This document shows positions 4,400-34,821 of a DNA stretch of 36,154 nucleotides, in pieces. The number at the start of each line of letters is the position of its first letter. Within the stretch, counting starts at the first letter, position 1. This DNA comes from Planctomycetota bacterium. Its GTDB lineage: Bacteria; Planctomycetota; Phycisphaerae; UBA1845. Below the pieces are notes generated by a model. That model searched no databases. It was not told the DNA's origin and was given only the letters and a program-made list of their open reading frames with translations. The stretch covers positions 1 through 36,154 of the forward strand of contig JAJRSP010000254.1 of the NCBI GenBank assembly GCA_024278775.1, read 5' to 3'. A program made the position numbers and the translations under genes.

Positions 4400-5200
4400 T
4401 TATCGCGGCGGCTTGTAGCCCCAGTAGAGATGAGGCTGCATCCAGCGTATGTCACCGTGTCTGAAATCACGATCCGTGACGAGATCATCGGTGGTAACGT
4501 GACCGACCGTCCCATTGAGAAAGAGGACGTTGGCGTAATCACCGTGGAATTGGCCCACGCGATGACTGCCGAAATCACGCTGACACTCGGTGGCCACGTC
4601 TCTCGGCGTGCCGGCCGGGGAGTTCCACGCAATCTCGATCATAAACACGGTATCCGAAGGGTTTCTGAACAAATGCGCACCGAGGGGGTCCTCTCCTTGA
4701 TCCGGAAAACCCGGCGTGTCGGACGACCCTTCCGGCGCGGCACCGAGACCATCCAATACCTGATTCATCGCGTAGTGAAACTGGTTCTTGCCCGTACGGC
4801 TCTTGTAGGCGCTGGTCCGGTTCTTGGCGGGGCAGATCCAAGTGCTCAACGCCGGAAACTCCTTGATGGCCTCGTCGAAACGCTTGACATCGACATAGGC
4901 CGGCATGTTGAGATACGGAGGAAGTGCATTAAACCACGTGCCCGGTTTCTTGAGATTCCAATAGGTGCCCTCGGTCGGCAGGTAGTCGAAGGAATCCTGG
5001 CGGTAGGAGGCCAGCGCCACGCCCCACTGCTTCATGTTGTTCACACAGACGATTCTCCGAACCCGTTCGCGGGCGGCGCTGAGACTCGGAAGGAGCATAC
5101 TCACCAACAGCGCGATCAACCCCATAACGACAAGCAGTTCCAACATGGTGAACCCGCGCCGGATACGGTACAGACGAGGTACCTGAAGTTGCGTTTCCAT
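4400..5200 (-). CDS. Prepilin-like protein with type II secretion/pilin N-terminus (DUF1559-like)
   Basis: A 266-residue protein with a type III-IV prepilin signal: a basic leader ending in RRG, then FTMLELLVVMGLIALLVSM, with the conserved Glu at position +5 after the cleavage site. The hydrophobic helix is followed by LLPSLSAARERVRR, typical of the expanded planctomycete pseudopilin families. The C-terminal part has features of those families (NNMKQWGVAL early, VLFLNGTVGHV near the end). It is expected to be processed by PilD-type peptidase and sit in the inner membrane or a pseudopilus. Such genes are found in many copies in planctomycete genomes and are usually of unknown individual function. 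Confidence 0.85.
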   Translation of the reverse strand: METQLQVPRLYRIRRGFTMLELLVVMGLIALLVSMLLPSLSAARERVRRIVCVNNMKQWGVALASYRQDSFDYLPTEGTYWNLKKPGTWFNALPPYLNMPAYVDVKRFDEAIKEFPALSTWICPAKNRTSAYKSRTGKNQFHYAMNQVLDGLGAAPEGSSDTPGFPDQGEDPLGAHLFRNPSDTVFMIEIAWNSPAGTPRDVATECQRDFGSHRVGQFHGDYANVLFLNGTVGHVTTDDLVTDRDFRHGDIRWMQPHLYWGYKPPR

Positions 5201-19525: not shown

Positions 19526-20389
19526 CTACCACTGAATCCGAATCCCGGCGATCACCCGGTAGTCCGTTTCAGGTCCCTCCCCGTCCTGGGTGACGGGAAG
19601 CTGGATCGAGGTCTCAAAGATCCAATTGCCTGTGATGTACTGAAACCCCGGAGAGAGAAAGAGCGTGTGCGAGCCGTCGGTACGATACAGTCCGTTGATC
19701 TCGGCCACCACATCGAACTCCGAAGTGTCATCGTGTGCAAACTCCGCGGGAGCGACGCGGTAGGAGTAGGCGGCATCATACCGGAGGACATCGTGGCGCA
19801 TCTCCCCGCCGCCGGTGTTGAGTTGATAGATCAAATCGGCATCGAACTTGTCGCGTTCCTTGCGCCACGTAAACGCGGTACCGAGCAGAGGGTCATAGCT
19901 ATCGCTTGAAAAATCACTATCGCCACTACGTACGTTCAGCCCGACCAGCGCCGCCAGCCGAATCGTGGTTTGAGGCTCGGGGTCTTGAAACCAAAAACGG
20001 TACTTGGCCATCACCGTAACATCGCCGATGCCGTCGTGGACGTTTTCGATTCGACCCATGTTCGGACTATACGTGTCCACCCGTCGACTCATCACAGGCA
20101 CCGACAAAAACAGGGCCAGATCCTCACTCACACCGTGGATCAACGTGGACCGAAGCGCGGAGGTGTTCATGTGGGCGATGCGGTCTTGTCCATCCGACTC
20201 GGCATAGACATACAAGAGACGCAAAATCGTAGCGCCCTCTCCCGGCGCGATCGCGGCATTGGTGTTAATCGGACCAGCCTCAGTTATCGCAGGAGCTACC
20301 GCAAGACACACCAGCGCGCCGCACAACCCCGGAACCCGTGCGTGTGGTATCAGCTTGGCCCACACGTGATCAGTTCCCGTTGAGTACAT
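19526..20389 (-). CDS. Outer-membrane beta-barrel protein (phenol_MetA_deg-like transporter)
   Basis: A 287-residue protein with an N-terminal hydrophobic export segment (GALVCLAVAPAITEAG) and alternating beta-strand pattern throughout, ending in the aromatic W (VIAGIRIQW) typical of outer-membrane barrels. Segments such as DGIGDVTVMAKYRF and TRTDGSHTLFLSPGFQYIT-like strands resemble the MetA-pathway phenol degradation family, generic barrels often annotated as transporters. The ATG at 20389 lies 20 nt inside the preceding lipoprotein gene, so translation is probably coupled. It is the last gene of a minus-strand run that includes the double-selenocysteine HMA lipoprotein, suggesting a role in moving a metal or metalloid across the outer membrane. 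That role is inference. Confidence 0.78.
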   Translation of the reverse strand: MYSTGTDHVWAKLIPHARVPGLCGALVCLAVAPAITEAGPINTNAAIAPGEGATILRLLYVYAESDGQDRIAHMNTSALRSTLIHGVSEDLALFLSVPVMSRRVDTYSPNMGRIENVHDGIGDVTVMAKYRFWFQDPEPQTTIRLAALVGLNVRSGDSDFSSDSYDPLLGTAFTWRKERDKFDADLIYQLNTGGGEMRHDVLRYDAAYSYRVAPAEFAHDDTSEFDVVAEINGLYRTDGSHTLFLSPGFQYITGNWIFETSIQLPVTQDGEGPETDYRVIAGIRIQW

Positions 20390-20546
20390 TCGACCAGAAC
20401 GTGTTGACGAAAGTCATCACGGTGGCGTTCATCGCGCTTTGGCCGATCGAGTAGAAAGGGTTGGGACCGATACAACCGGTGGTCACCAGTAGGGTGAGGC
20501 CCAGCCATAAGCCGGCCAAGATTCTGCGGAGTGTGTGACGCTTCAC
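20370..20546 (-). CDS. Small lipoprotein (58 aa) in the HMA selenoprotein operon
   Basis: A short gene starting at GTG 20546, preceded by GGGAG at about 9 nt and beginning only 2 nt after the stop of the HMA gene. It encodes a basic n-region (VKRHTLRRI), a hydrophobic core (LAGLWLGLTLLVTTGC) with a TTGC lipobox, and a mature part of roughly 30 residues beginning CIGPNPFYSIGQ. It overlaps the barrel gene by 20 nt. Function unknown; its position between HMA lipoprotein and barrel suggests it works with one of them. Confidence 0.72.
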   Translation of the reverse strand: MKRHTLRRILAGLWLGLTLLVTTGCIGPNPFYSIGQSAMNATVMTFVNTFWSNVLNGN

Positions 20547-20548
20547 AA

Positions 20549-20950
20549 TCAGTGACTCCCTATTTTGTCATCGAGTTCCGGACCCGTATACACATCGGCT
20601 CCCATTGTAATCCGCTGTGGTGTGAAGCCTGATCGTTCGATCGCTCGCCATATCTCGGACGCCGAGGCTTTTTTTCCCGGCGCAAAAACGATCCAGCCTC
20701 GTCCCGCACGAAGATCAAAAGCGAACAGGTCTATAGATTCCTCACGCTCGACCGAGCGTCGTAGTCTCACGACTCAGAACGGTCACGTAAGTCCGTTGAC
20801 CTCGGCGACGGCGTCAACATGAGCCGGCTTTGATGTTTTTGATGGCCCCTCCTTGGTGCCGGACGCCGCGCAACCCACCGTGAGCAGCGGGGTCGCGACC
20901 GCCAGGGCCACGAAGATAGACGGAATACCTAAACGCAAAGGAAAACTCAT
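20549..20950 (-). CDS. HMA-domain lipoprotein with UxxU motif (double selenoprotein)
   Basis: The ATG at 20950 opens a frame of 134 codons to the TGA at 20549, with two internal TGA codons at 20785-20783 (codon 56) and 20776-20774 (codon 59). Read as selenocysteine, the product has a lipoprotein signal (LAVATPLLTVGC, Cys27), a short polar linker and a heavy-metal-associated domain: VNGLT-U-PF-U-VVRLRRSVE, then GWIVFAPGKKASASE and IERSGFTPQRI. HMA domains bind soft metals through GxTCxxC; both Cys are TGA-encoded here. A hairpin with GGUC loop lies 20 nt after the second TGA. GAGGAG at the end of the GGDEF gene is the likely SD, and the gene starts 9 nt after that stop. Protein started after the second TGA would lose signal and metal site. 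Confidence 0.88.
20744..20759 (-). promoter_or_regulatory. SECIS-like hairpin with GGUC tetraloop
   Basis: On the transcript ACGCTC (20759-20754) pairs perfectly with GAGCGT (20749-20744) around the tetraloop GGTC (20753-20750). The loop begins 20 nt after the second TGA and 29 nt after the first. The SelB-binding apical loop of E. coli fdhF is also GGUC on a GC-rich stem, about 18 nt from its UGA (from memory). One element could serve both codons. Confidence 0.78.
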
Positions 20951-20959
20951 AAGAACACG

Positions 20960-22285
20960 CTACTCCTCAGTGGTGATCGACTCACCGACCAGATAGATTC
21001 GATTTTTTCCGGCGCGTTTGGCGCAAAGCAAAGCCTCATCCGCCCGCTGGATCAACTCATCCCTCGTGGCGGCGTTCCACGGATACGTCGCCAAACCACC
21101 GCTGATCGTGAGCTTGCCACAACCCTCCGCCCCGAGCGGCGCAAACGCCTCATTGGCCAAAGACCGCTTCACACGGTCAAGCACATTCAACGCAGACGCC
21201 GGATGCTTCGAGCCGGGAGCCCGAGGCCCCTGTGAGTCCCAAAAGACCACCGCGAACTCATCGCCGCCGTATCGCGTCACCACATCCTGTTCCCGGCAGT
21301 GGCGGCGAAACAGCTCGCCGGTGTGCCGGAGAATATCGTCGCCCGCGGCGTGCCCGAAAGTATCGTTGTAGCTCTTGAAATTGTCAATGTCGAAGAGCAG
21401 CACGGTCACCGCGAAATGATCGCGCCCGGCTTGCTCCAGAATGTAATCAAGCTGTTCGTGCAGGTAACGACGGTTGGGTAGACCGCTACACGTATCGATC
21501 AATGCCCGCTGACGCCAGAGGCGTTGCCGAGAGGCCGACGCCAGAATCTCACTGGCGATCGCACCGTATCGTTTCAGTTTCTCCGCATCGCCCACGCCAT
21601 ACGGACCATCATCTCGTTCCGTGACGGTGAGTTGGCCAATGGTGTTACCATCGACCACAAGCGGCGCGGCCAGCGCCGGTTTCGTAGCCACGGCACCGGA
21701 TGACGCCACCGCACCTTCGACGATGACCGTGGCACCGCGAGCGTCCATGGCCGAACGGATGAGCGCGGCCAACTGCTGGACCAGTTCCATCGGTTTGGCC
21801 GATGTCTTGGACAACACCTCCGCGAGAAGTGCCAGTTCTTCCATAGATGCCGTGGTCGGCGGCGTCTCGGTACCAAACGTCTCGCCCGATCGAGCGTAGC
21901 CGATGGCCGCGTCCACCTCGCACCGTCGAAGCGGATGCAGCACATAGTCGTCCGCCCCATGGCGAATCATCTCGCGAGCGAGCGGCTCCCGTTCCGGCGT
22001 GCAGCATAAGATGAGCCTGGTCGGTGATCCGGCGGCCTCGCGCATGGCCGCGATGGCGGCACCGAGGTGGCGAAGCGTCGGGTCCAAATCAGTGAGTACG
22101 GCACGCGGCCGCTCATCCACGAGTTTCACCACTGCGGAGAGATAGCTCGGACAGGATTTGATCGAGAGGTCGGGGTAGTCGCCCCGCAGTTGATCGATTG
22201 ACCCCGCGTCGCCACCGAATCGCTCCCCGACCACAAGCAGCGTGTCGTTCTCCTCGCGTAGATGGATCTGGGGCATCCGTATCAT
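20960..22285 (-). CDS. Diguanylate cyclase with receiver-like and GAF-like N-terminal regions
   Basis: A 441-residue protein. Residues about 15-130 resemble a response-regulator receiver (LVVGERFGGD at the start, AVLTDLD, LILCCTPE, GADDYVLHPL). A GAF-like region follows (about 150-260, with an APLVVDGNTIGQLTV strand pair), then a complete GGDEF domain with RYGGDEF near residue 336. An I-site RxxD (REQD) lies exactly five residues before GGDEF, so c-di-GMP product inhibition is expected. The start ATG overlaps the upstream stop by 4 nt (ATGA). The selenoprotein gene follows after 9 nt, so the two are probably co-transcribed. The stop is TAG. Confidence 0.9.
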   Translation of the reverse strand: MIRMPQIHLREENDTLLVVGERFGGDAGSIDQLRGDYPDLSIKSCPSYLSAVVKLVDERPRAVLTDLDPTLRHLGAAIAAMREAAGSPTRLILCCTPEREPLAREMIRHGADDYVLHPLRRCEVDAAIGYARSGETFGTETPPTTASMEELALLAEVLSKTSAKPMELVQQLAALIRSAMDARGATVIVEGAVASSGAVATKPALAAPLVVDGNTIGQLTVTERDDGPYGVGDAEKLKRYGAIASEILASASRQRLWRQRALIDTCSGLPNRRYLHEQLDYILEQAGRDHFAVTVLLFDIDNFKSYNDTFGHAAGDDILRHTGELFRRHCREQDVVTRYGGDEFAVVFWDSQGPRAPGSKHPASALNVLDRVKRSLANEAFAPLGAEGCGKLTISGGLATYPWNAATRDELIQRADEALLCAKRAGKNRIYLVGESITTEE

Positions 22286-23115
22286 GATCCGTTCGTGTCC
22301 GTATTCGTACCGCCCGTTGCCGCGTCGTCGTCTCCGATTAACGCACGAAGCTCCTCTTCGGAAAGCAGCGGGCCGGGTTCGTACGATTCGGGTCCGCCCC
22401 GGTTCGCATCAGCGTCGTCGGCACCGGGCGGCGTGCGCTGCGGCGGAGACCGACGCGGGGGCGATCGCCGACCCGCATCATCATACACGCGCCACGGTAC
22501 GCGAATCGGTGTCTCCGTATCATCATCCTCTGCGTGCGCCAATTCCGCATCGACATCATGCGGAACCTCCTCGGACGGCTCCACATCCCCCGCGTCATCG
22601 CTGAGGATTCGTTTCCCGTCATCCGATTCCCATACCGGCGTCACCGGCGCGACCAAAGACGCAGACTCCATCGTGGCGGCAGGTGGTTCGCGATCTTCAA
22701 TCGCGACTGATACCTCCGGCGTCGTTTCCAACCGGACGAGCTGCTGCACGATCTCATGGGTGGCTTCACCGGTCGCACCGAGTTCGATGGCCCGACCCAG
22801 CTTGGCCAGAGACCGCTCATGACCATACACATGGACCGGAGGGCAGTGGTGCTGTTGCGAGAGAAGCGTGAAGAACTCAAGCTCCGCGGGCTCCATTTCA
22901 TCCACGCAGACGATCGCGGCCGGATACGCCGTCGCTCCATCCCGGACCAGATACAACAGGGCGTGATGCACGTCGGTCACGATCCGGACCGGACGGACCG
23001 ACCCGGTCAGCAACCGTTCCAAAGCCGCGATCTTGCCCGTCGAACTACGGGACGCTGCCGCTGCAGGCCGAAGCCAGAGCAAACCTCCGTCGAGTGTCTC
23101 CGTTACGTTTGCCAT
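22282..23115 (-). CDS. Receiver-like protein with acidic linker and C-terminal EEELRALI motif
   Basis: A 277-residue protein of unknown function. The N-terminal about 130 residues look like a degenerate receiver domain (RIVTDVHHALLYLVRDG, AAIVCVDEMEPAELEFFTLL, then HVYGHERSLAKLGRAIELGA). An acidic, proline- and arginine-rich disordered stretch follows, and the C-terminus carries PLLSEEELRALIGDD, reminiscent of short docking motifs such as the LSQEEIDALL of flagellar FliM/FliN. It is translationally coupled to the diguanylate cyclase (ATGA overlap), suggesting a shared signalling pathway. The motif comparison is inference. Confidence 0.65.
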   Translation of the reverse strand: MANVTETLDGGLLWLRPAAAASRSSTGKIAALERLLTGSVRPVRIVTDVHHALLYLVRDGATAYPAAIVCVDEMEPAELEFFTLLSQQHHCPPVHVYGHERSLAKLGRAIELGATGEATHEIVQQLVRLETTPEVSVAIEDREPPAATMESASLVAPVTPVWESDDGKRILSDDAGDVEPSEEVPHDVDAELAHAEDDDTETPIRVPWRVYDDAGRRSPPRRSPPQRTPPGADDADANRGGPESYEPGPLLSEEELRALIGDDDAATGGTNTDTNGS

Positions 23116-24852: not shown

Positions 24853-24989
24853 ATCGATGGGCTACCCGATGTTCGACATGCAGCAACCTACCCAACGAGG
24901 GGCCGACGGCCGTAATGGGGCAGACATGGTCATGCAAACGTGAGCCATGTCCACAGAAAAGATCGGCGTTCGGACGATATGAAAAGAGC

Positions 24990-25376
24990 GGTGGAGTGGG
25001 CGGGTAAGCCGGATCTTGTCCCTCGCCGAAGCGACTGGGCGATCATTTATCTTAGGCCGCCGGTCACCCGACGGCTCATGCACCCTACCCGCAGCTTATG
25101 AAACCGAACGAGTCGGCTTACCTGAGACGGGCCGCCTCTCGCTGCCTATTTGGGCTTGCTGGCGGTGGGGTTTACCCTGCCACGACCGTCACCGGCCGTG
25201 CGGTGCGCTCTTACCGCACCATTTCACCCTTACCGGCCGAAACCGGCGGTATCTTTTCTGTGGCACTAGCCCTCGGCTCACGCCGGGTTGGCGTTACCAA
25301 CCACCGCGCCCTGTCCAGTCCGGACTTTCCTCTCGCACGCCGAAACGCACGAGCGATCGCCTTCGCCCACTCCACC
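24990..25376 (-). ncRNA. rnpB: RNase P RNA
   Basis: A bacterial class A RNase P RNA of about 387 nt. The ends pair through a long P1 (GGTGGAGTGGGCG at the 5' end, CGCCCACTCCACC at the 3' end). The universal segment GAGGAAAGTCCGGACT lies at 25333-25318, an AGAAAAGATACCGCC segment and GGTAAGGGTGAAATGGTGCGGTAAGAG-type core follow, and the 3' conserved AAATGATCG...ACAAGATCCGGCTTA block is at about 25045-25003. It matures tRNA 5' ends. A short TTTTC run directly follows P1 and may take part in 3' end formation. Confidence 0.95.
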
Positions 25377-31676: not shown

Positions 31677-32273
31677 TCAGCTCCCGAGCCACTGCATGTA
31701 GGTGATGATGGCGATGCCGCGCCGGTTGGGATAGTCGTCGTCGTCAAAAAACCAGGGGTAGGCCGGCATCACCGAGGTGGGCACCACGTTCGTTGGTTGG
31801 AAAAAATGGGCGAGATGCCAGTCGTTGCTGCGGCGGGCGGCTTCTCTGGAGAGGTCCGGGCCGACGCGGCGCGTGGCCAAGAAAACGCGGCGCTGCAAGT
31901 CATTGTTGTACTCTTCCGCACGAGCCACCGGCCCCCAACGAAGCGTTTCGCCCGGGACACCGCGCACGTGCTGCGTGTGGCAGTGCCCACACGCCTCGGC
32001 CACAAACGTGTCGTGACCCAGTTGGAGCGCGTCGGCGAAGGCTTCTTCGGTCGGTCCGGCAGGGTAATACTGCCTGAACCGATCGGGGAAGCGTTCGGCC
32101 AGGTCGATGAACTCGTGCGTCACGCCTTCGTGGGCTAGTTCGATCACGGTGGGCCGGTGCCCCGGCGGGCGGGCGGTCCACCGCAGGGCACCCACGGCTA
32201 CCAGCGAAAAAGCCAGCAGGACGACTCCAGCGCCATACAGGGTTTCTGATTTCAGACCGGTCACCGTATTCAC
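31677..32273 (-). CDS. ccoO: cbb3-type oxidase subunit II (monoheme cytochrome c)
   Basis: A 198-residue CcoO/FixO protein: one N-terminal membrane helix (LYGAGVVLLAFSLVAVGAL), then a cytochrome c domain with the heme motif C95-x-x-C98-H99 (ACGHCHTQHV) and conserved segments RYYPAG-like, RRVGPDL and HFFQPTNVVPTSVMPAYPWF, the last carrying the Met ligand. The start is GTG 32273, overlapping the ccoN stop by 4 nt (GTGA). A longer open frame that continues upstream across ccoN is not real. It passes electrons from the diheme cytochrome to the CcoN-like subunit. Confidence 0.92.
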   Translation of the reverse strand: MNTVTGLKSETLYGAGVVLLAFSLVAVGALRWTARPPGHRPTVIELAHEGVTHEFIDLAERFPDRFRQYYPAGPTEEAFADALQLGHDTFVAEACGHCHTQHVRGVPGETLRWGPVARAEEYNNDLQRRVFLATRRVGPDLSREAARRSNDWHLAHFFQPTNVVPTSVMPAYPWFFDDDDYPNRRGIAIITYMQWLGS

Positions 32274-33703
32274 AGTTGGTCCCCCGTGGTCATGATTTCC
32301 GCCTTGGGTAGCGTGACGGTTCGTTTGTGGATGGCCGTCATGGCGACGTGGCAGATAAAGACCATGTGTCCGACGATGATCGCGACACCGGCCACGGTGC
32401 GGATGATCCAATAGGGTGCCGACGCGGTGATCGATTCTTCCCACGGCGCAAGCTGGTGCCAGAGACGTTGCTGGATCACACCAGACGTCGTGAGGTCGAC
32501 AAACATCACCAACAGGCCGAGACCGGTCAACCAGAAATGCCAGGCGTGCCAACGGGGCTGGTACCAACCTGTCGCGCCCAAGAGTTTCGGCAGTAGATGG
32601 GTCATGACACCCACGAGCCAGAACCCGAACACGCCAAACACGATGAGATGCGAGTGAGCGATGGTCCAATCGCTGGAGCCGGCCGAATCGTAGAACGAAG
32701 GCGCTAACCGGACCAGGCGCTGCACACAGACCGCGACATAGAACACCCCGCCCATGCAAAACCATCGCATGACCGGGTGCGTGCGAGTTTGGCAGTGCCC
32801 CTGCCTGACACTTGCGAAGAAGTTCACCATGACCGTGCATGCGAGGGCTACTACCGCGATCGTCGAGATCGCATCGGCCAGGCGCGGTGAGATCAGGTGC
32901 TGCCCGGCGAGACCATAGCTCACGACGATCAACGGGAAAAAGAGGATCACCCCCACCCAGCCGACGAGTGCCAGCCGGTGGCTCCAGATCGGTTTCTCCA
33001 GGATGACCGATACGAAATAGTAGATGAAACCCCAGCCAAGCGGCATGATAAGCATCGCCGTCATGTCGGCCATGCTGGGGCCGGAAGTGCCGGCAGCCGC
33101 GCCGCGAACGAATCGCTCCGGAAGAAGGTTGCCTATGGCGTAAATGATAGGCAAAGAAACCAGCGCGATGACGATATACCACATCGCGATGGGTCTTGGA
33201 GATCGGCACTTGACGATCGGCACGAGGAAACCGACCGATATCGTCATGAGGAGCAGCGTGACCACCGGGTCGATCCAGACCGGTGTCTCCCCCCAGGGCA
33301 CGGCTTTCGCGTCGCCGAGAATCACGGCCGTCACGTTCACAGCCAGGATGCACTGCCACGCGACAAAGAGCGACCACGACCATCTGAGGCCGAGCACCGG
33401 ACGCCGGGTAAGCTGGGGCACGATCCAATGCAATGTGCCGAGGCCGGCATTGGCGAGAAACCCGTACAGCACGATATGGGTGTGGACGATCCGCCAACGC
33501 GCGGGAGAAAACCACTCGATCTCGGCGAAGGGGTATAGCCCCAAAAACTGGAGCGAGTACAAAAAACCCGCGAGCATGGCCACCATCGCTAACGCGAGGC
33601 TTGCGATGAAATAGGCGAGCACGATCTTCTTGTAGATGGGGCCATCCGAGGTATCTCGCCGTATGCTGTCGAGTGTCGGTGTGCTTACATCGCCAGAGAT
33701 CAT
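32270..33703 (-). CDS. ccoN: CcoN-like heme-copper oxidase subunit I lacking Cu-B ligands
   Basis: A 477-residue protein with about 12 membrane helices and CcoN-type sequence. The low-spin heme ligand region RIVHTHIVLYG (H74/H76) and the H-x-H pair for both b hemes (DWTIAHSHLIVFG, H350/H352) are present. The Cu-B ligands are not: where CcoN has GHN, this protein has MAD (A212), and the GPHHL motif is replaced by a shifted AGQHL with one His (H269). It may therefore be a non-oxidase relative such as an electron-transfer or NO-type reductase. The ATG at 33703 overlaps the upstream stop by 4 nt. Partners are the diheme cytochrome and CcoO. Confidence 0.85.
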   Translation of the reverse strand: MISGDVSTPTLDSIRRDTSDGPIYKKIVLAYFIASLALAMVAMLAGFLYSLQFLGLYPFAEIEWFSPARWRIVHTHIVLYGFLANAGLGTLHWIVPQLTRRPVLGLRWSWSLFVAWQCILAVNVTAVILGDAKAVPWGETPVWIDPVVTLLLMTISVGFLVPIVKCRSPRPIAMWYIVIALVSLPIIYAIGNLLPERFVRGAAAGTSGPSMADMTAMLIMPLGWGFIYYFVSVILEKPIWSHRLALVGWVGVILFFPLIVVSYGLAGQHLISPRLADAISTIAVVALACTVMVNFFASVRQGHCQTRTHPVMRWFCMGGVFYVAVCVQRLVRLAPSFYDSAGSSDWTIAHSHLIVFGVFGFWLVGVMTHLLPKLLGATGWYQPRWHAWHFWLTGLGLLVMFVDLTTSGVIQQRLWHQLAPWEESITASAPYWIIRTVAGVAIIVGHMVFICHVAMTAIHKRTVTLPKAEIMTTGDQL

Positions 33704-34821
33704 GGCTGGTTCCCGGTCGTGTCGTTCGCAGCGTCGCCGCTGGGCGGTGTCGGCGGACTCGGCATTTCCTCTTCGAAGAGTTCGTCCGTGTAGAGGTCAA
33801 GCTCCGGCGCGGGCGGCGTGGGAACCTCACCCGGCGCGAGGATGCGCTGCCTCCGATTTCGCGGGCGATAGCGATCCGCCATGGCGGCGGTGATCTTGGC
33901 CGGTCGTTGTCGGATCAGACTTTGCACGTAATACGCCATGGCCCAGATGTCTTGCGGTTGAACCAGCGGACCGCCGCCGCGTTCTCGGGGAACGTCCATC
34001 GAATCGATCCAGGTGGGCATGGCCGTTCCCGTGATGCCGGCCGCGATCGAACGATACAAGTCATTCACATCCGCACCGGAGCGAACCACATCTCGCCGGA
34101 AATCCGGCGCGAAGACGACTTCGCCCTCTGCGTCTGGCTGACCCACGGATTGGGGAAGTTCTTCGCGGAAGGCGTCGCGCGCGGGGTTCTCCATCGCAAC
34201 CAGGTATCGGTTGATCGTATCGGTGTCGACGTAGCTCGGGTGGCATGTCCAGCAGGTGGCGTATCCGTAATAAACCGCCTCACCCCGGGCGATGGGCCCG
34301 GACTTGTCCGTCAGTTCGCGAAAAGGGTCGTGGTCCTGGGGAATCACCGGAGCGGGGTCTTTGCGACTCCACCGAGGCGAAAAATTCTTGATGTATGTAA
34401 TAAGGGCTGCGACGGTGCGTGGCGTGAGGAACTTCCAGCCCGGCATGGCCGTGCCCTTGAGGCCTTCGGTGATGGTGCGGCTCAGGTCTTCGTCGGTGGG
34501 GAGTTGTCCGCTTCGGGTCGACGAAGACTTGAAGTTAGCGTGTCGAAAGTTGCGTGGTCTGGGGCGGATGAATCGTGCGGCCGGCCCCTGGCCGTCCCCG
34601 GTATCGCCGTGACAACCCGCGCAATACACTTCGTAGGCTCGGCGTCCCTCATCCGATAAAGAAGCCTTCGTGACGAATGGCGGACTCGTACTGACCCTAA
34701 CGAGCGTGCGAACGGACGATACTCCCGACTCCCCGCAGCCGGACAAGATCAACACAGCCGCCGTAGTCGCCATCAGCGTGCGGGGCCGGATGGTAGTCGT
34801 AGGTTTGTGGCGATCGATCAT
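33700..34821 (-). CDS. Diheme cytochrome c lipoprotein of the cbb3-like cluster
   Basis: A 373-residue lipoprotein (lipobox LILSGC, Cys29) with two cytochrome c domains. Heme motifs are C67-AG-C70-H71 and C190-WT-C193-H194; matching Met ligands are in GTAMPGW (about M126) and GTAMPTW (near 265). It occupies the role of CcoP, but with a lipid anchor instead of a membrane helix. The C-terminal 60 residues are Pro/Glu-rich. First gene of the three-gene operon; its stop overlaps the ccoN start (ATGA). Confidence 0.88.
   Translation of the reverse strand: MIDRHKPTTTIRPRTLMATTAAVLILSGCGESGVSSVRTLVRVSTSPPFVTKASLSDEGRRAYEVYCAGCHGDTGDGQGPAARFIRPRPRNFRHANFKSSSTRSGQLPTDEDLSRTITEGLKGTAMPGWKFLTPRTVAALITYIKNFSPRWSRKDPAPVIPQDHDPFRELTDKSGPIARGEAVYYGYATCWTCHPSYVDTDTINRYLVAMENPARDAFREELPQSVGQPDAEGEVVFAPDFRRDVVRSGADVNDLYRSIAAGITGTAMPTWIDSMDVPRERGGGPLVQPQDIWAMAYYVQSLIRQRPAKITAAMADRYRPRNRRQRILAPGEVPTPPAPELDLYTDELFEEEMPSPPTPPSGDAANDTTGNQP

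Follow-up and report, generated by a model that had tools for sequence, protein, structure and literature searches.

Gene content of the locus

The window (the whole 36,154-nucleotide stretch of contig JAJRSP010000254.1 from a Planctomycetota bacterium) carries a gene for a predicted HMA lipoprotein with two in-frame TGA codons (20549..20950, minus), recognized by translation, homology and fold. Translation runs from an ATG at 20950 to a terminal TGA at 20551-20549, giving 133 codons on the minus strand, and the only internal in-frame stops are two TGAs, codon 56 (20783..20785, minus) and codon 59 (20774..20776, minus), which by translation and alignment take the place of the first and second Cys of a GLTCPFC motif. 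An earlier sequence-only reading had proposed one continuous frame broken by just these two TGAs, both on the Cys pair of the metal-binding motif. Its coordinates proved exact, the strand, which it had not given, is minus, and the two TGAs were located in columns C56 and C59, where 33/33 aligned homologues have Cys. The read-through product is MSFPLRLG...LLTVGC-AASG...EVNGLT-U-PF-U-VVRLRRSV...RAIERSGFTPQRI..., while under the standard code the protein would end at codon 55 and the metal site would be lost.

A lipoprotein signal is predicted at 20870..20950 (minus), where reading the translation by eye gives a lipobox-like LTVGC at Cys27 with Ala as the next residue. By the sorting rule, Ala after the lipobox Cys directs a lipoprotein to the outer membrane. 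Since Ala follows the lipobox Cys and a barrel gene adjoins, the HMA protein is predicted to be an outer-membrane lipoprotein. The codon statistics do not discriminate between a coding and a noncoding HMA frame: scores as low as that of the stretch before the TGAs occur in 16.5% of true-frame pieces, and scores as high in 17.6% of wrong-frame pieces; for the stretch after the TGAs the figures are 11.8% and 18.9%, respectively. Past the TGAs the third-position GC is 0.50, whereas three neighbouring genes have 0.68-0.71.

The HMA gene lies in a same-strand run of four frames, in the order GGDEF, HMA, 58-codon ORF and barrel, and no gap or overlap between successive frames exceeds 20 nt. The upstream neighbour encodes a GGDEF protein (20960..22285, minus; Pfam E 3.8e-37) and ends 9 nt before the HMA start. 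Downstream, a small lipoprotein-like ORF of 58 codons with a GTG start (20370..20546, minus; last nine codons read by eye) overlaps by 20 nt the start of an outer-membrane beta-barrel gene of the Phenol_MetA_deg family (PF13557; 19526..20389, minus), which was assigned by Pfam (E 2.4e-12), homology and a structural model. The barrel model, built from three sequences, has 13 strands and a mean pLDDT of 70; FapF is among its nearest solved structures, and a COG4313 channel stands at rank 16. At the two Cys-form loci found by the species-genome scan described below, L001 and L002, the gap between the HMA and barrel genes is 69 nt and 12 nt, respectively, too short for a 58-codon ORF.

Elsewhere in the window, a tRNA-Ser(GGA) (22974-23054, minus) lies upstream of the GGDEF gene, within the mechanical ORF 22282-23115, and a bacterial class A RNase P RNA was detected at 24989-25373 (minus; 289.5 bits). 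The stretch 4400-5200 (minus) encodes a DUF1559 protein bearing an N-methylation motif, which is typical of planctomycetes. As well, a 717-aa ORF is present at 31677-33830 (minus), of which only residues ~600-700 match models of the cbb3 oxidase subunit II (CcoO), all below cut-off.

Family membership and predicted fold

The HMA homology of the frame is secure, and it is based on the match to L001, an alignment with 33 homologues, and comparison with solved domains by both sequence and fold. Pfam HMA (PF00403) matched the Cys-substituted reading weakly, at 13.6 bits against a gathering cut-off of 24.8, and a direct search of a large protein set with the read-through protein gave 33 candidates, none at E <= 10. 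The species-genome scan returned two relatives, L001 and L002, both with an intact GLTCPFC, the former matching the HMA protein at E 2e-14 as a single comparison, and solved HMA domains were reached by sequence with a best E of 2.7e-10. A three-row profile of the window protein, L001 and L002 recovered 336 homologues at E <= 0.001; 120 of these were listed and, together with the window protein, supplied the rows selected for alignments A2 (34 rows: the window protein and 33 homologues) and A3 (41 rows). The sequence-only reading had made its case depend on homologues with Cys or Sec at the two positions; those with Cys are abundant, and the closest of them share the gene neighbourhood.

Nine columns are invariant across the window protein and 33 homologues when the TGAs are counted as Cys (G53, L54, C56, P57, F58, C59, A103, G108 and F109), and the window protein retains all seven non-Cys residues (G53, L54, P57, F58, A103, G108 and F109). 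It deviates at three of the five nearly invariant positions (G62, K65 and L67). In a domain tree built from 118 of 121 rows (a motif or length filter excluded the other three), the window branch measures 4.11 changes per column, and its placement is unsure because the branch is very long. The 73-residue piece past the second TGA, used as a query aimed at truncated relatives, gave no matches.

Structure prediction with AlphaFold2 (41 sequences) gave block-wise mean pLDDT values of 90-95 across residues 41-120 of the HMA protein, and AlphaFold2, DSSP and Foldseek together define an HMA domain over residues 47-122 of the model (20585..20812, minus). The predicted order is strand-helix-strand-strand-helix-strand, and helix 1 begins at residues 56-59; both the ferredoxin-like order and the loop at the CxxC position resemble those of solved HMA domains. 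Foldseek with this model retrieved ATP7B domains, CopZ, MerP and further metal-binding domains. The model is silent on selenium, because Cys was modelled at the TGA codons.

Barrel cassette of the Cys-form relatives

The window barrel is homologous to the barrels adjoining the HMA genes in L001 (E 4e-32) and L002 (E 4e-29). Among 200 genomes of the phylum of L002, 128 had some HMA match; in the best seven of these 128 (E <= 2.5e-32, including the genome of L002), the HMA gene in every case had a barrel homologue and a gene for an NHL protein next to it, and its presence in those stretches was also matched by a separate query with the L002 HMA protein. HMA, barrel and NHL protein also occur together in an eighth genome, that of L001, bringing the barrel homologue beside a Cys-form HMA gene, as well as the nearby NHL-repeat protein, to 8/8 genomes with close matches. 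A MerR protein of the L002 type is found in four of the seven stretches (L019, L020, L022 and L024) and in the longer locus L002 of genome G002, i.e., in 5/7 genomes, a count that covers the seven genomes of the phylum of L002, with L001 outside it. The regulator of L002 scored below the cut-offs of the CueR, ZntR and MerR models. A recurrent cassette can thereby be described in L001, L002, L019-L022, L024 and L025, consisting of a GL[TS]CPFC HMA gene, a Phenol_MetA_deg-type barrel, an NHL-repeat gene and often a MerR-type regulator. For its Cys form, ordinary tolerance assays could reveal which metal is handled.

None of 13 weaker HMA loci (L026-L038, ~3.3 kb each) had a barrel at E 1e-5. In the window, no NHL match was obtained at E <= 1, and the MerR match extended over only 10 residues. 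In addition, tblastn against plasmids and phages returned no match to the HMA protein and two weak plasmid matches to the barrel. The MerR-type regulators near the Cys-form relatives are the main hint that the metal may be soft or toxic.

Stop-codon usage and the SECIS-like hairpin

TGA-xx-TGA spacing as such is not rare, as three further pairs occur in the window among frames of at least 100 codons without TAA or TAG and with 2-4 TGAs, a filter that did not catch the pair at codons 56/59. The DNA pattern GLT-TGA-PF-TGA had eight matches in viral contigs, none of them (0/8) resembling an HMA frame, which indicates that the motif alone arises by chance. The weight of the TGA pair lies in its position on invariant Cys columns and not in its spacing. 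It had been argued from the sequence that random nonsense mutations would rarely strike both ligand codons, and the calculation agrees: given two nonsense mutations in a Cys-form gene, the probability that both fall on these Cys codons and both yield TGA is 4.2e-4 to 1.1e-3. We rejected the idea that TGA is generally reassigned, since it terminates 5/17 genes sampled from the window, and the same genes contain 95 TGG, 57 TGC and 38 TGT codons.

A SECIS-like hairpin, ACGCUC-GGUC-GAGCGU (20744..20759, minus), places its loop 29 nt past the first TGA and 20 nt past the second, both within the range of 16-37 nt that PMC13188914 states in a figure legend. Of the two E. coli controls, fdhF carries a SECIS with an identical GGUC loop at 18 nt, and that of fdnG has a related loop. 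Exact GGUC hairpins at 16-37 nt follow 8/1098 TGA triplets of the window, codons 56 and 59 included, and were produced in 3/2000 codon shuffles, in a test that was chosen post hoc, with the loop already seen. A general hairpin test at -7.5 kcal/mol passed 34/1098 window TGA triplets and failed both E. coli controls, which have interrupted helices, while a threshold admitting both controls also passed 257/1098 TGA triplets and 497/2000 shuffles. A claim that the SECIS was statistically strong was consequently dropped, as either the E. coli controls fail or the background is high, and the statistical weight of the GGUC hairpin is modest. The overall folding energy of the region is ordinary (z -0.98, 0.34 and -0.29).

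Search for selenocysteine relatives

No UxxU or UxxC relative of the GL[TS]CPFC lineage was found in viral contigs, plasmids, phages or the 200 genomes of the phylum of L002, and protein and profile searches of the viral contigs gave no relative of the HMA protein. Among the matches listed, 13 bearing a TGA were checked (12 from the 200-genome HMA search and one from the NF041115 genome search); none had TGA at the ligand positions, both of which were Cys, and the TGA either ended the frame or preceded it. Similarly, the selenoprotein model NF041115 gave a match in 345 of 398 genomes of the phylum of G002, none above its cut-off. Neither of the genomes of L001 and L002 (0/2) had selB above cut-off, as expected for hosts of the Cys form. 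As for planctomycetes, PMC4807772 reports full Sec gene sets in P1, P2, G. obscuriglobus and I. pallida, whereas P3 showed no evidence of one.

Proposed reading and alternatives

Judged from the sequence, selenocysteine is the likeliest reading of both TGAs, and we consider it probable that the gene encodes a UxxU HMA domain on a predicted outer-membrane lipoprotein, whose diselenol would pass metal to or from the barrel. Both UGA codons would be decoded as selenocysteine, with read-through probably steered by one SECIS-like hairpin common to the two. The two selenols would then stand in for the Cys pair of the relatives and hold a soft metal ion, which from the family could be Hg(II), Cu(I), Cd(II) or similar. 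This ion would be handed to, or received from, the beta-barrel protein encoded just downstream, and the HMA protein and the barrel would both belong to a cassette for tolerating or handling metal. The diselenol metal-binding lipoprotein of the sequence-only reading is upheld in part, insofar as selenocysteine is the likeliest reading and the TGAs stand on Cys columns; no relative with TGA was found in the sets searched, and metal binding is suggested by the family.

The gene could instead be a pseudogene, a decaying Cys-form HMA lipoprotein that took two nonsense mutations by chance on both Cys codons. The long branch (4.11 changes per column), the changes at three of five nearly invariant positions and the lower third-position GC past the TGAs would all suit such decay, and no homologue is near enough to reveal purifying selection. 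However, the small probability of an exact strike on both ligand codons (4.2e-4 to 1.1e-3, given two nonsense mutations), the lack of any frameshift, TAA or TAG in the HMA frame, the retention of all seven other invariant residues and the tight spacing of the gene to both neighbours argue against it, and decay is regarded as unlikely. Sequencing or assembly errors could also have produced both TGAs in a Cys-form gene, an explanation that found no direct support in this analysis and that would require the two ligand codons, and no others in this open gene, to have been hit independently; it appears highly improbable. Much the same slight chance is given to TGA being read as Cys, Trp or Gly through a changed code or a suppressor, yielding a protein without selenium. 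A suppressor that inserts Cys would yield the usual protein of the family, given that the TGAs both align with Cys, but the termination of 5/17 window genes by TGA, and their TGG, TGC and TGT codons, speak against this reading.

Generally, then, insertion of selenocysteine at both codons is the preferred reading. If it takes place, this lipoprotein lineage would enlarge the still small group of UxxU metal-binding selenoproteins known from prediction, and the use of selenols as plain metal ligands would become testable in a protein linked to an outer-membrane barrel. A broader picture can be drawn tentatively, with somewhat less than even confidence: an outer-membrane selenium metal relay, in which a diselenol HMA lipoprotein would serve a dedicated barrel channel and one SECIS would serve two UGAs, as a selenium version of the HMA / barrel / NHL / MerR cassette.

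Comparison with known systems

Among the matches listed in the open-licence literature, neither a Sec HMA lipoprotein beside a barrel nor an HMA / barrel / NHL / MerR cassette was found. UxxU proteins of the HMA type do appear there: an entry in PMC13188914 describes NF041115 as 'Metal-binding protein (putative mercuric reductase)', UxxU, with two Sec, an entry in PMC9312934 gives a 'putative mercuric reductase' with UxxU, and the marine metagenome study PMC2398784 has an entry for a MerP selenoprotein.

Of the NCBIfam models, NF041115 (UxxU_metal_bind, metal-binding (seleno)protein) matches the window protein best, at 30.4 bits, far below its curated cut-off of 95. It resembles the window protein in its HMA-type domain with both ligands as Sec, while the window protein differs in being a predicted lipoprotein of the GL[TS]CPFC lineage with an adjoining barrel gene. 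NF045683 (MerT_CopZ_Se, MerT/CopZ fusion-like heavy metal transport selenoprotein) shares the HMA-like part, but the window protein lacks the MerT part and scores 14 bits against a cut-off of 375. MerP (1afi and 1osd) and CopZ (6ff2), all within the Foldseek top 50, have the same fold and ligand loop, whereas their ligands are Cys and their identity to the window protein is 12-28% in the listed rows compared; we know of no lipoprotein anchor in either. The Cys-form GL[TS]CPFC HMA proteins (L001, L002 and L019-L025) share the motif, the HMA domain and a homologous barrel partner with the window, and they differ from it in having Cys in place of TGA, an NHL gene and, in several cases, a MerR-type gene, neither of which the window has. 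UxxU HMA selenoproteins are, therefore, an already predicted class, in which the window protein would be a divergent new case, encoded beside an outer-membrane barrel gene.
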